NCBI GenBank assembly: GCA_944323955.1
Contig: CALUUK010000014.1
Span: 1-35,410, forward strand
DNA length: 35,410 bases
From: Candidatus Gastranaerophilales bacterium
Lineage (GTDB): Bacteria > Cyanobacteriota > Vampirovibrionia > Gastranaerophilales > Gastranaerophilaceae
Direction: 5' to 3'
This document shows, piece after piece, positions 30,309 to 35,410 of this stretch (position 1 is the first letter of the stretch; every line of letters begins with the position of its first letter). The translations under genes and the position numbers were made by a program. The notes under the pieces are model-generated. The model had not been told where the DNA came from. It saw nothing but the letters and a program-made list of their open reading frames with translations, and did not search any database.

Positions 30309-30341
30309 TAAAGTTAACATCGTTTTATGAAAAGAGGCGGC

Positions 30342-33300
30342 ATGAAAAAAGTATTTGCGTTTGATATGGGAAAAGCAAGTATCGGCTATTGTGTAAGAGA
30401 AGATAATGAAATAAAAAAACTTGGTTCTGTTATTATTGAAAAAGACCATTCAACAGTTGAAGATAACCGCAGCAGAAGAAGAGCATACAGAACACTTGTG
30501 GCGCACAGAAACAGGATAAAATGGTTTGATAATCTTTGGGAAAGTAATGGACTTTTAAAGACTGATAATGAACTTCTGAAAAAAGAATTTGCTTGCCAAT
30601 CTGATGAAACAATATATAATTCAACTATTTTAAGATGTGCATTAATTCAGGGAAGAAAACTTGAACAATGGCAAATATATAAGGCTTTGCATAGTGCGAT
30701 ACAAAGAAGGGGTTATGATTGCAGCTTACCTTGGGCTAATTCATCAAATGATAAGGATGCAAAAGAGAACGAAGAAGCTGTTAAAAAATATACTTGTCTT
30801 GACGGAAATGAGATGATTAATACTGAGGATTTTAAGTATCCTTGTTTTTATGATGCAATGCTTTTAGGCTTGTGGAGTGAAACAAATCCTTATAACTTTA
30901 AGAGAAGTATAGGACTGAATCCTGAAAAAGTCAGAAAAACCGGCAGAGTTGCACCAAGAGAGCTTGTTATAAAAGAATTAACAAAACTGTGGGAGGAGGC
31001 AAAAAAACAGCTGCCTCAGCTAGAAAAGATTTCTGTTGAAGAATTTTTATACGGAGAATATCGTGAAGCATACGGTTCTTATTCAAATTCCGAATGGATT
31101 CAATACCGCGGAACTAATCGCGATTGGCAAGGAGTTTTAGGTCAAAAAATTCCGAGATTTGATAATCGTGTTATTTCTAAATGTAAATTACTGTCAAAAA
31201 GAAATGTTTGCAGCGCAGATACTATTGAAAATATTTCTTTGTCATTATTAATGCAGTTAAAGAACTTCAGATATACCAATGCATTTACTTTTGAATCCGG
31301 TAACAGACTTGGTTCTATTGAAATTAATCAGATATATGAAGATAAACTTCCTGAATGGACTTCAAAATTAACAGATTATAGACAAGGTAAAACAAAAAAT
31401 CCGGGTTTTACGATATCTAAAACAGATATTGAAAAAGTTATAGGCAAAAAAATTATAAAAGAGAAAATGGAATCTTTTAAAGTTAATATTTCCGGCCGTT
31501 CGTCATTCTGCCGCAGAGCCTGTCAGATAATGATTGATATTATTATCTCAGGATGTGATCCTTGGGAATTGGATATTGATAAGTATATTGATAAAGAAGG
31601 TGTAAAAAACGGTATAACAAAAGAAGAAGTTTCTTTAATGCTTTCAAAAATCGGAAATTGGAATAACTTATTTATTCCCGATAATCGATACGAAATGGAA
31701 GAAATATCTCAAAATGCAGATAAGGAAAGTGATATATTAATAGGTAATATTACAAATCCGGTTGTCAGAAACCGACTTCAAATATTTAAAAATCTTTTAA
31801 ACGAGTTAATCCTAAGTGAAGGAAAGCCGGATGAAATTATATTTGAATTTGTTCGGGATGGCGCTGATAATTCATTGTTTGGAAGTATAAAAGCAAATAA
31901 TGCTTTAAATTATATGAAAAATCAGGAAAAAATAAATGAACAAATCAGGAAGGATTTAGAAAATGCGCTCTGTTACAGTGAAACAAACTTCTTAAAATAT
32001 AAACTTGCACTGGCACAAGACTTTAAGTGTATATATAGCGGCGAAAAAATTGGAATAACAGATTTTGATAACTGTCAGATTGACCATATTTTTCCCAGAA
32101 CGCTAGGTGGAAATGATGCATTATATAATAAAGTACTTTGTTATAATAAAGAAAATCAGGATAAAGCAGGCAGAACTCCTTATGAGTGGTTATTCTCAGA
32201 TAAAGAACGCTGGAGTGAATATACAACAAGAGTATTAAATTTAAAGAATAAATTAGGTAAGAAAAAAGCTCAGCTTCTTGTTTTACCGCCTGATAAATGT
32301 GAAAAATTAATAGAAAGCTATAACGGACTTGCAGAAACTGCACAAGTAGCTAAAGTTGCAAGTGCTGTTGCTCATTTTGTATGCGGCTGGGGTATGCAGA
32401 CACAAGGAACACAAAGACATGTATTTGTTGAAAACGGTTCTACAACCGCTAAAATAAGAAATATTTATAAATTAAATTCTATTTTAGGTGATGATAAAAA
32501 GAAAAACAGAGAAAATCCAAAACACCATGCTTTAGATGCAATCTGTATAAGTTATGCAAGGAATTTGAAACTTGATGAGAAAAAGCATAAATATTATGTT
32601 GAAGGGCTAGATAGACCTTATATAGAACAAAAAATTGCAGAATTAATGCCGTTTCCATATACTCATAAGAAACCCTTAAAATCAAATACAAGACCATTAG
32701 AAACAATTTACGGAAAAAAGATTATAAATGATAAAGCCTATATAACATCCCGTGTTGCATTGGCAGACATGAAACAGGATTTAAAAACAATAAAAAATAT
32801 AATTGACTCTGTTATTAAAGACGATTTAACTGCAAAGCTGAATGAGCAACTAACAGCTGAAGAATGGAAAACAATGCTGCAAAATTATATTCATCCAAAG
32901 AAAAGAACACGAGTTAAAAAGGTTTTAACAATAGTTTCGGAAGGTAAACTTGAAACTGATTTAAACGGCAGAGAAAGAATAGGCGAATACTGCGACTTTG
33001 GAACAAAAGGTACTAAAGGTCAGTTTAAACATTCTAAGGGACATAAAGGGCAAATTTTATATTATGATTCAAAAGGTAATGTAAAAGTTATGCCTGTTTA
33101 TGCAAATAAATCTACAAGAGAAGTAAAGGATAATCTTTTGGATACAGGATGTAAATTATATAAAGGCGGCGAAGTATTTTATTCGGGCTGTCTGGTTGAA
33201 ATACCTGATAATTTTAAAGCAGGAGCACTTACTTATCCTAAGGGAATTTATAAATTAAGAACCATAAAATCTAGTGGTGTAGTTAAACTGGAAAATAATG

Positions 33301-33368
33301 TCGGACAAGAGCTTGATACAAGTGCAAAGAATCTAACGACAGCAGGTTTCTATAAAGTAAAAGATTGA
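30342..33368 (+). CDS. cas9: CRISPR-associated endonuclease Cas9, type II-C
   Basis: RNA-guided DNA nuclease, 1008 residues from ATG 30342, a compact II-C size. RuvC-I is FAFDMGKASIG with catalytic D8. An arginine-rich bridge helix follows (SRRRAYRTLVAHRNRIKW). RuvC-II is IIFEFVRDGAD with E502. The HNH domain is CQIDHIFPRTLGGNDALYNKV (D581, H582) with KENQDKAGRTPYEW. RuvC-III is KHHALDAICISYA with H728/H729 and D732. The remaining ~270 residues form the wedge and PAM-interacting part. All catalytic residues are present, so it should cut. ATG 30327 is also open, but AAGAGG serves 30342. cas1 and cas2 follow; no csn2 or cas4 is present. The PAM cannot be read from sequence. Confidence 0.95.
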   Translation: MKKVFAFDMGKASIGYCVREDNEIKKLGSVIIEKDHSTVEDNRSRRRAYRTLVAHRNRIKWFDNLWESNGLLKTDNELLKKEFACQSDETIYNSTILRCALIQGRKLEQWQIYKALHSAIQRRGYDCSLPWANSSNDKDAKENEEAVKKYTCLDGNEMINTEDFKYPCFYDAMLLGLWSETNPYNFKRSIGLNPEKVRKTGRVAPRELVIKELTKLWEEAKKQLPQLEKISVEEFLYGEYREAYGSYSNSEWIQYRGTNRDWQGVLGQKIPRFDNRVISKCKLLSKRNVCSADTIENISLSLLMQLKNFRYTNAFTFESGNRLGSIEINQIYEDKLPEWTSKLTDYRQGKTKNPGFTISKTDIEKVIGKKIIKEKMESFKVNISGRSSFCRRACQIMIDIIISGCDPWELDIDKYIDKEGVKNGITKEEVSLMLSKIGNWNNLFIPDNRYEMEEISQNADKESDILIGNITNPVVRNRLQIFKNLLNELILSEGKPDEIIFEFVRDGADNSLFGSIKANNALNYMKNQEKINEQIRKDLENALCYSETNFLKYKLALAQDFKCIYSGEKIGITDFDNCQIDHIFPRTLGGNDALYNKVLCYNKENQDKAGRTPYEWLFSDKERWSEYTTRVLNLKNKLGKKKAQLLVLPPDKCEKLIESYNGLAETAQVAKVASAVAHFVCGWGMQTQGTQRHVFVENGSTTAKIRNIYKLNSILGDDKKKNRENPKHHALDAICISYARNLKLDEKKHKYYVEGLDRPYIEQKIAELMPFPYTHKKPLKSNTRPLETIYGKKIINDKAYITSRVALADMKQDLKTIKNIIDSVIKDDLTAKLNEQLTAEEWKTMLQNYIHPKKRTRVKKVLTIVSEGKLETDLNGRERIGEYCDFGTKGTKGQFKHSKGHKGQILYYDSKGNVKVMPVYANKSTREVKDNLLDTGCKLYKGGEVFYSGCLVEIPDNFKAGALTYPKGIYKLRTIKSSGVVKLENNVGQELDTSAKNLTTAGFYKVKD

Positions 33369-33399: not shown

Positions 33400-34350
33400 A
33401 TGAGTTACCATATTCTGCATCTTACAAAAAACGGAAGCTATGTATCTGTTGATAGAGGGCTTTTGTTTTGTGAAGTAAAGTCAGCGGGTGAATGCTACAA
33501 ACTTCCTATTGATGATATTAAAGCAGTAATAGTATGTACTCCGGCGGTATCATTTTCAAATAATGCCATAGCTGCGCTATTAAAAAATAATGTTGTTATT
33601 CAGCATTGTGACAGAGCTTTTCAACCTATAGGCTGGAGTGTTCCTCTCTCCAGAATTGTTAAAACGAAAGTTTTTAAAAATCAAATTGAACAAAATGATG
33701 TTTTTACTTCTCAATTGTGGAAGAAAATTGTAAAACAAAAAGCATTAAATCAAGCTGCCGTGCTTGATATTATGGGTCTTGACAGTCATAATTTGTATAA
33801 TCTTATCAATAAACCTCTGATGAATGAAGCCAATATTGCTAAGCAATACTGGAGAGATTATTTTTTTATGCTCTCGGAACCTATGAAACGGGAACACCGA
33901 AATGCACAAAAATTTGAAAATGCATGCCTTAATTATGGTTATGCAATTCTTAAGACATTAATTTATCGCTCTATACTTATACATGGTCTGTTGCCGAATT
34001 TGGGGATACATCATACGGGTAATTATAAAACTACTCCGCTTGTATATGATTTAACAGAGCCTTTCAGAGCATTTATTGACATATATCTTTATTATTTTTC
34101 TAAAAATTATCCCGATGAATTTGAAAATGAAGAGATACAGGAATGGATTAAATTTATACCAAATTGTTTGAAAGATTACAGATTAAAATATAAAGAAAAC
34201 AGTTATAAAATAATTGATATTATAGACATTTATATAGAAGAAATCGCAAGTGCTTTTTCCTTGTTTGATAGTTCTGAAATATTTTTACCGAATATAAAAG
34301 AGCAATATTTATACAAAGACACACAGAAAAATAGAGAATATGAAGAGTAA
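33400..34350 (+). CDS. cas1: CRISPR-associated integrase Cas1, type II
   Basis: Metal-dependent integrase that with Cas2 inserts new spacers. 316 residues. The N-terminal beta domain is MSYHILHLTKNGSYVSVDRGLL. The C-terminal helical domain has the metal-site residues: E143 in MNEANIAKQYW, H204/H205 in LGIHHTGNYKTTPLVYDL, and D217/E220 in YDLTEPFRAFID. It matches type II Cas1 in size and motif spacing. It begins 31 nt after the cas9 stop and overlaps cas2 by 11 nt. It seems intact, so the locus should be able to acquire spacers, unless the truncated array has lost its integration end. Confidence 0.95.
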   Translation: MSYHILHLTKNGSYVSVDRGLLFCEVKSAGECYKLPIDDIKAVIVCTPAVSFSNNAIAALLKNNVVIQHCDRAFQPIGWSVPLSRIVKTKVFKNQIEQNDVFTSQLWKKIVKQKALNQAAVLDIMGLDSHNLYNLINKPLMNEANIAKQYWRDYFFMLSEPMKREHRNAQKFENACLNYGYAILKTLIYRSILIHGLLPNLGIHHTGNYKTTPLVYDLTEPFRAFIDIYLYYFSKNYPDEFENEEIQEWIKFIPNCLKDYRLKYKENSYKIIDIIDIYIEEIASAFSLFDSSEIFLPNIKEQYLYKDTQKNREYEE

Positions 34351-34687
34351 ATATAGAATGGGCTGGTTGTTTGTGTGTTTTGATTTGCCTGTTGTTGATA
34401 AAGAAGATATGAGAATGGCAAATAATTTTAGAAAGGATTTACTGAAACTTGGTTATTTCATGCTTCAAAATTCAATATATGTACGCTCTTGTGTGACATA
34501 TGATAAAACTGAAAAATATATTAAACTGATAAAAAGACTTGCACCTGCTACGGGGCAAGTGAATATATTCTATTTAACGGACAAGCAATGGAGTAATTCT
34601 GTTTGCATTGAAAAAGCTGAATATAACCCTTCAAAATATAAAAAGAAAATGGGTGAAAATACAGAAAAACAAATGACATTCTGGTAA
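34340..34687 (+). CDS. cas2: CRISPR-associated protein Cas2, type II
   Basis: Small ferredoxin-fold protein that bridges two Cas1 dimers during spacer integration. 115 residues, starting inside the cas1 end. GWLFVCFDLPVVDKED is the first strand with the conserved aspartate (D15). FRKDLLKLGYFMLQNSIYVRSC is the helix and second strand, and GQVNIFYLTDKQW the last strand. The terminal QMTFW is frequent in type II Cas2. ATG 34358 is a possible alternative start. It ends 25 nt before the predicted 3' end of the convergent tracrRNA. Confidence 0.93.
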   Translation: MKSKYRMGWLFVCFDLPVVDKEDMRMANNFRKDLLKLGYFMLQNSIYVRSCVTYDKTEKYIKLIKRLAPATGQVNIFYLTDKQWSNSVCIEKAEYNPSKYKKKMGENTEKQMTFW

Positions 34688-34711: not shown

Positions 34712-34821
34712 AAAAGAAATTTGAAGGTTTAGAGAATGAGGCATAGCGTATATTTACCATATAGAGGGAATGACTATTCTCTAATCAATTATGATTGGTC
34801 TCTTAATTTAAAGTATATTAT
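34712..34821 (-). ncRNA. Predicted tracrRNA
   Basis: On the minus strand 34820-34788 is a decayed copy of the array repeat, complementary to the crRNA. It would pair as a 13-bp upper stem (TTTAAATTAAGAG), a bulge (ACC on the tracr side) and a ~9-bp lower stem with one mismatch. Downstream, 34783-34779 can pair with 34766-34762 (TAGAG/CTCTA) as a short nexus-like hairpin, or 34784-34776 with 34737-34729 as a 9-bp long-range stem. It ends near a small TCAAA/TTTGA hairpin and a TTTCTTTT run (34718-34711 region). About 110 nt, the expected size for II-C. The 3' end is approximate. Confidence 0.75.
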
Positions 34822-34827
34822 GTAATT

Positions 34828-34856
34828 ATTATATATTATTTTGTGTATTTTGTATA
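34828..34856 (-). promoter_or_regulatory. tracrRNA promoter
   Basis: On the minus strand TATACA (34856-34851), 17 nt, TATAAT (34833-34828), with a start near 34821 just before the anti-repeat. The embedded promoter of the adjacent repeat (34869-34861) points the same way and could also read into the tracrRNA. Confidence 0.55.
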
Positions 34857-34860
34857 TCCT

Positions 34861-34869
34861 ATTATAACA
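34861..34869 (-). promoter_or_regulatory. Repeat-embedded extended -10 promoter (one per repeat)
   Basis: The last nine bases of each repeat on the minus strand are TGTTATAAT, a perfect extended -10 (TGnTATAAT). The same element is at 34927-34935, 34992-35000, 35058-35066, 35124-35132, 35190-35198, 35256-35264 and 35322-35330. Transcription should start about 7 nt into the following spacer, leaving ~23-24 nt of guide. The copy given here is the last one and faces the tracrRNA. Confidence 0.75.
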
Positions 34870-35340
34870 TATTTTAAATTAAGAGAAAATCAAAACCAAG
34901 ATACAAGGTTTTAAATCGTCATCAGGATTATAACATATTTTAAATTAAGAGAAAATCAAAACTATATATATGCGTAGGTGACACCTTTTGTATTATAACA
35001 TATTTTAAATTAAGAGAAAATCAAAACTTCGGTAAGTTTTTTAATTTTTCTTTTAATATTATAACATATTTTAAATTAAGAGAAAATCAAAACTCATAAT
35101 TTTTACTCCTCATTCAGTAATTTATTATAACATATTTTAAATTAAGAGAAAATCAAAACTTTAATAACATATGATGTTCGCGGCATTTAATTATAACATA
35201 TTTTAAATTAAGAGAAAATCAAAACCTCTTGAATCAACTGTTGATGAAATGGAAAATTATAACATATTTTAAATTAAGAGAAAATCAAAACGTATTCCTT
35301 TACATATTCATTTAAATATTTATTATAACATATTTTAAAT
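34861..35340 (-). CRISPR. Type II-C CRISPR array, seven full repeats plus one truncated
   Basis: Identical 36-bp repeats at 34861-34896, 34927-34962, 34992-35027, 35058-35093, 35124-35159, 35190-35225 and 35256-35291. An eighth keeps only its first 19 bp (35322-35340) before foreign sequence. Seven spacers are 30 bp, except the second (34963-34991), which is 29. On plus the repeat opens ATTATAACATATTTTAAATT and closes AAAATCAAAAC. The functional strand is minus, because the crRNA then begins GTTTTGATTTTC, as in other type II repeats, and matches the minus-strand tracrRNA. No repeat shows decay, so the array looks recently active. Spacer targets cannot be judged here. Confidence 0.97.
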
Positions 35341-35410
35341 GGCTCTGTCACAACAAATGGTTGATTTTTGACGAGAAATAGCGTATAATAATAGTAAGAA
35401 ACAGTACCAC
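35341..35410. mobile_element. Left end of an insertion sequence interrupting the array (partial)
   Basis: At 35341 the eighth repeat stops abruptly and unrelated sequence begins GGCTCTGTCACAACAAATGG. GGCTCT at the tip resembles ISL3-family terminal repeats; IS6-type ends are another possibility. An inward promoter follows. The element runs off the window, so no transposase or second end is visible. If ISL3-like, an 8-bp target duplication of TTTTAAAT or similar would be expected at the far junction. Confidence 0.6.
35361..35389 (+). promoter_or_regulatory. Probable inward transposase promoter of the IS end
   Basis: TTGATT (35361-35366), 17-nt spacer, TATAAT (35384-35389), pointing into the element about 20 bp from its tip, as usual for a transposase promoter. 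Confidence 0.5.

Follow-up and report, generated by a model that had tools for sequence, protein, structure and literature searches.

A CRISPR array in a Candidatus Gastranaerophilales genome probably carries a sigma-70 extended -10 promoter in every repeat and is read on the minus strand, together with a tracrRNA that has its own promoter. We put the probability of this whole model, which is built on sequence comparisons, at roughly 85%. Each immune RNA could then probably be made singly from its own repeat. The mechanism is already known; what is new is its presence in a deep, undescribed branch. The window, the whole stretch of DNA analysed, is 35,410 nt long, and the array occupies 34861..35340 on its minus strand.

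The array consists of seven full 36-nt repeats, one cut repeat, and seven spacers of 29-30 nt. On the plus strand the repeat reads ATTATAACATATTTTAAATTAAGAGAAAATCAAAAC, with seven full copies at 34861-35291 that start at 34861, 34927, 34992, 35058, 35124, 35190, and 35256, and a cut copy at 35322-35340. On the minus strand, which is the crRNA strand, it reads GTTTTGATTTTCTCTTAATTTAAAATATGTTATAAT. The first-pass annotation had claimed that a perfect extended -10 element ends every repeat on this strand, and this was confirmed, as TGTTATAAT was the minus-strand 3' end of 8/8 repeats in the window (seven full and the cut one). In the cas2-proximal, newest repeat, the element (34861..34869, minus strand) points into the tracrRNA region. 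The other six full repeats carry it on the minus strand at 34927..34935, 34992..35000, 35058..35066, 35124..35132, 35190..35198, and 35256..35264, with predicted starts at 34920, 34985, 35051, 35117, 35183, and 35249, respectively. A start 7 nt downstream of the -10 element would leave 24 nt of a 30-nt spacer (as at 34920) and 23 nt of a 29-nt spacer (as at 34985), and the spacer lengths therefore agree with the guides of 23-24 nt that had been proposed. Exact matches to five spacer cores, which would have given protospacers for the PAM side, were not found in viral contigs.

Exact TGNTATAAT occurred 12 times in the window, compared to a chance expectation of 4.06 and at most 10 occurrences in 100 shuffles. 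Eight of the 12 were the repeats, which count as one event because repeats are copies. A shuffled repeat of equal composition ended exactly in TGTTATAAT in 0.026% of trials and, counting all positions and both strands, contained the motif in about 1%. The extended form is informative in this lineage: in sampled DNA of this order, the interval from -65 to -15 upstream of genes had 30 sense and 11 antisense copies of TGnTAnnAT. Bare TATAAT, which is common in an AT-rich genome, showed no strand bias in the same interval and the same sample (31 vs 30) and was rejected as a promoter marker, since only the extended form is biased. No good -35 element was found in the repeat. An extended -10 promoter can work without a -35 element. 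The genome encodes both RpoD and RNase III.

The first-pass annotation had suggested aligning the repeats of relatives. Among 16 distinct repeat types from Gastranaerophilales and Termititenax, TATAAT was unchanged in 16/16 while the middle of the repeat drifts, with 30 of the 33 substitutions falling within nt 10-27. The TG of the extended element was kept in 14/16 types and lost in L057 and L062, and in L062 the lost T is compensated in the tracrRNA. Taken alone, this conservation within the group argues only weakly for a promoter because the first nine bases are as fixed as the 3' end and pairing with the tracrRNA extends to position 33; nine random positions were as conserved as the 3' end in 9% of draws.

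Convergence across families appears to be the stronger evidence. In a set of 20 type II repeats from many phyla, under about 80% alike, 75% end in TAnnnT on the crRNA strand, compared to 0% on the opposite strand and 3.8% of shuffled repeats. Their 3' ends matched TATAAT at 4.55 of 6 positions, while shuffled repeats matched at 1.82, with a maximum of 2.65 in 10,000. The last six bases of the nine repeats with at least 45% G+C have only 28% G+C. TATAAT also ends the repeats of two other systems in the same order, an unrelated second one (GTTATAGTTTCCTTTCGAAAG...) and a third one (L086). The strand, the conservation of TATAAT, and the cross-family convergence thus support by inference the reading of the repeat 3' end as a promoter, as first proposed.

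The gap between cas2 and the array, mostly 170-180 nt, is common to 27 related loci in an alignment. On the minus strand, the last repeat is followed by AGGATATACAAA, TATAAT, and then a stretch complementary to the repeat. The conserved part of the tracrRNA lies at 34726..34821 (minus strand), with a predicted start at 34821 and the anti-repeat core at 34800-34818. Its putative promoter, TATACA-N17-TATAAT, is found at 34828..34856 (minus strand), and the fixed spacing is kept in 23/27 loci. The anti-repeat covaries with the repeat: across the 16 repeat types, 290 pairs were formed with the own partner, while 20,000 permutations averaged 266 and never exceeded 282. In the Termititenax locus L118, many repeat positions differ, and the anti-repeat core pairs at 19/19 positions. 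The joint fold of repeat and tracrRNA gave z = -6.0 against shuffles, and the tracrRNA stem after the anti-repeat shows compensatory changes (e.g. GAGGAAT/ATTCCTC and GAAAAT/ATTTTC). The covariation, joint fold, and stem compensation therefore identify the minus strand, opposite to the cas genes, as the crRNA strand, in agreement with the first-pass annotation. The tracrRNA is predicted to lie between the array and cas2, and it and the array would both point against the cas genes.

Two other sources of the tracrRNA were considered. One driven only by the -10 element of the last repeat is less likely because the stretch from repeat to anti-repeat contains a separate, conserved TATACA-N17-TATAAT. 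A degenerate terminal repeat on another contig, C15, was dropped as the tracrRNA because the covarying anti-repeat was found beside cas2. An Rfam search of the window matched no family. The tracrRNA region of L065 is about 55 nt longer than those of its relatives and holds an inserted hairpin-like stretch, GAAAGAGTTGTGAAAAAAATTAGTTTTTTCACAGTC.

Array polarity was examined in 33 complete arrays. The degenerate repeat is at the transcription-upstream end, and the cas2-side repeat is almost always perfect. Changes in the oldest repeat, some of which come from indels, numbered 124 in nt 1-15, 35 in nt 16-27, and 18 in nt 28-36; this repeat mostly keeps its -10 element and decays in the 5' half. 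In the oldest repeat, the 5' half serves no crRNA, whereas the 3' half would act as promoter for the oldest spacer. Decay of this kind was also found in II-C systems and interpreted as silencing of an extra crRNA (PMC12080349). Both explanations may be true, and the retention of the inner half may partly reflect array geometry. At the acquisition end, the conserved leader start AGGATATACAAA (34849..34860, minus strand; alignment of 27 loci) adjoins the last repeat and looks like a leader anchor for spacer integration. It is kept beside the last repeat in nearly all loci, and it overlaps the -35 (TATACA) of the tracrRNA promoter.

The motif, strand, tracrRNA pairing, array polarity, and conservation observed in this analysis are consistent with the following mechanism. 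In the cell, transcription would proceed on the minus strand, towards cas2, from TGTTATAAT at each repeat 3' end, and each repeat promoter would give a short pre-crRNA that begins about 7 nt inside the next spacer. Because of this start, the predicted 5' end would leave a 23-24-nt guide that needs no 5' trimming. A tracrRNA transcribed from a promoter of its own in the gap between cas2 and the array would pair with the downstream repeat, and the crRNA 3' end would probably be formed when RNase III cuts this duplex. Spacers would enter at the cas2 end beside AGGATATACAAA, leaving the oldest repeat at the far end.

The array is split by an insertion sequence (IS). The cut repeat at 35322..35340 (minus strand) retains the 3' 19 nt, including TGTTATAAT, and begins with the 8-nt target duplication (ATTTAAAA), which lies within one repeat. 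The IS end, with the terminal repeat GGCTCTGTCACAACAAATGGTTGAT, occupies 35341..35410 (no strand assigned), and the other IS end is on contig C15. C14 and C15 end in the same IS, with terminal repeats GGCTCTGTCACAACAAATGGTTGAT and GGCTATGTCACAACAAACAGTTGAT, and we infer that they join across it; no contig spans the IS. The array resumes at the end of C15, where two further spacers lie with a repeat that is perfect but for one end base and with the degenerate terminal repeat; both repeats end in TGTTATAAT. The first-pass annotation had the leader lost to the IS. This was incorrect, as the IS lies inside the array, the leader end is the intact cas2 side, and the array and its degenerate end continue on C15.

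Its idea that the IS need not silence the array was upheld, since, along the direction of transcription, 7/9 spacers come after the IS and each of these retains its -10 element. The split repeat keeps bases 1-25 on one side and bases 18-36 on the other, so that neither adjoining unit lacks a necessary part. The 5' 25 nt would serve one unit as crRNA tail, and the 3' 19 nt would serve the other as promoter; with tail and promoter intact, all nine spacer units should in principle still be expressible. A GTGACA at 35351-35346 (minus strand) lies in the IS end, 18 nt before the TATAAT of the cut repeat. Together they form the region's best sigma-70 match (11/12 with TG), of a kind that AT-rich DNA commonly gives. 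In 35322-35351 (minus strand), the IS may strengthen the cut-repeat unit rather than silence it.

An unlikely alternative is that the repeat 3' end is conserved for the Cas1-Cas2 leader-repeat junction and for tracrRNA pairing, that its likeness to a -10 element is incidental, and that one promoter upstream of the oldest repeat serves the array. The TATAAT of the repeat abuts AGGATATACAAA, so integration could hold this end, and neither end of the repeat varies. Pairing with the tracrRNA does involve repeat positions 28-33, but the last three bases (34-36) are unpaired with it (19-41% paired) and pairing therefore cannot account for their conservation. Incidental likeness is also at odds with the convergence of unrelated repeats, some of them GC-rich, on TAnnnT on the crRNA strand only. 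A single promoter would have 7/9 spacers beyond the IS, as seen from the only possible upstream position, and the same layout uses repeat promoters by experiment in Campylobacter jejuni (PMC3656092). A II-A-like plus-strand reading of the array, starting from the leader beside cas2, is highly improbable: the leader is indeed on the cas2 side and TATAAC stands at the plus-strand repeat start, but the anti-repeat is complementary to, and covaries with, the minus-strand repeat, which begins GTTTTG like type II crRNA repeats, and the 20 dissimilar repeats never show TAnnnT at the plus-strand 3' end.

The locus with these predicted repeat promoters contains only cas9 (30327..33368, 1013 aa), cas1 (33400..34350, 316 aa, type II/NMENI model), and cas2 (34340..34687, 115 aa), all on the plus strand, without csn2 or cas4. 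No cas4 was found in the window locus, and the genome's one Cas4-domain match was a 1045-aa frame on another contig. The II-C label given at first fits this gene content, but Cas9 scored 1012.8 bits on the NCBIfam Cas9d model NF049971 (curated cut-off 375 bits) vs 249 on the general Cas9 model. For the second system found in this order, the Cas9d model gave 132 bits and the general one 790. The window clade also fell outside all sampled II-C on a long branch in the Cas9, Cas1, and IscB-rooted Cas9 trees, which contain no II-A, II-B, or II-D reference and in which long-branch attraction is possible. Cas9 identity to the sampled II-C-like proteins is about 18-23%. Structure comparison of the predicted Cas9 (pTM 0.44) did not separate II-A, II-C, and II-D, with near-tied scores (II-D 9lgi, Z 17.6; others up to 19.5). 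Plasmid records gave distant Cas9 proteins only, none useful as a II-D reference, and a genome-contig search with a single Cas9 query found no relative at first. The system would work like II-C, and the II-C label is tentative.

Several observations were made on related loci. The order has two further Cas9 systems (L074-L085 and L086), with unrelated, TATAAT-ended repeats (GTTATAGTTTCC...TTGTATAAT and GTTATAGTTGACAG...TGATATAAT, respectively); in L086, cas1 lies beyond the array on the other strand, unlike in the other systems. In L087 and L090 (genomes G371 and G174), cas9 is broken by stop codons, and loss of the system in some species looks recent on this basis. In the pair L169 and L167, the Cas9 locus of a bin named uncultured Clostridia is nearly identical to that of a Gastranaerophilales (Scatousia) genome; the bin is probably mislabelled or mixed, or else the locus was transferred very recently.

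A promoter in every repeat was shown in C. jejuni in 2013 (PMC3656092). A 2015 survey of 132 type II systems reported a -10 element at the 3' end of II-C repeats in general and described the convergent array, degenerate first repeat, and downstream, -10-led tracrRNA (PMC4607530); this element is now treated as standard (PMC12080349). N. meningitidis is also cited for repeat promoters (in PMC7038990). Thus, the earlier suggestion that the trait is general for II-C holds, but it is not new, having been published in 2013-2015 (PMC3656092, PMC4607530). The present analysis adds a Cas9/Cas1 branch outside sampled II-C to the systems whose repeats carry crRNA promoters, with exact consensus -10 boxes in both the repeat and the tracrRNA promoter. 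It also provides matched pairs of repeat and tracrRNA from over 25 related loci, and a natural case of an IS-split array in which every unit is expected still to be expressed. If the branch is truly Cas9d, the trait is not confined to II-C and might predate it. A tentative extension, which we regard as doubtful, is that repeat promoters and a downstream leader are an old Cas9-array trait, found in the Cas9d-like branch (Gastranaerophilales and Termititenax) and in II-C, and that leader-driven II-A is derived.

Compared to type II-D (Cas9d; PMC9755519, PMC12669027), the window's Cas9 matches NF049971 over its full length and far above the cut-off. Two published II-D features are absent because the window locus lacks the cas4 of the II-D adaptation module (PMC12669027) and its Cas9, at 1013 aa, is larger than the compact II-D proteins of about 600-970 aa (PMC11706934) and is not of the MG34 type. 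The II-C array of Flavobacterium psychrophilum is likewise interrupted by an IS, IS256; both array parts are transcribed there, and the same is expected here, but the IS is different and Bacteroidetes repeats use another promoter motif (PMC10309648). In Clostridium cellulolyticum II-C, the last nine repeat bases likewise resemble an extended -10 element and the array is transcribed opposite to the cas genes. Its crRNAs carry 23-26 nt of spacer, compared to a predicted guide of 23-24 nt here; that RNA was sequenced after heterologous expression, whereas the window system is described here from its sequence (PMC7038990). The closest parallels are with C. jejuni II-C and its relatives, where a 36-nt repeat also ends in an extended -10 element with a start inside the spacer, predicted in our case (PMC3656092, PMC4607530). 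The -10 element is TAAAAT in C. jejuni and exact TATAAT here. In both, the array is convergent with cas9-cas1-cas2, the tracrRNA lies downstream behind its own -10 element, and changes in the repeat are matched in the tracrRNA.
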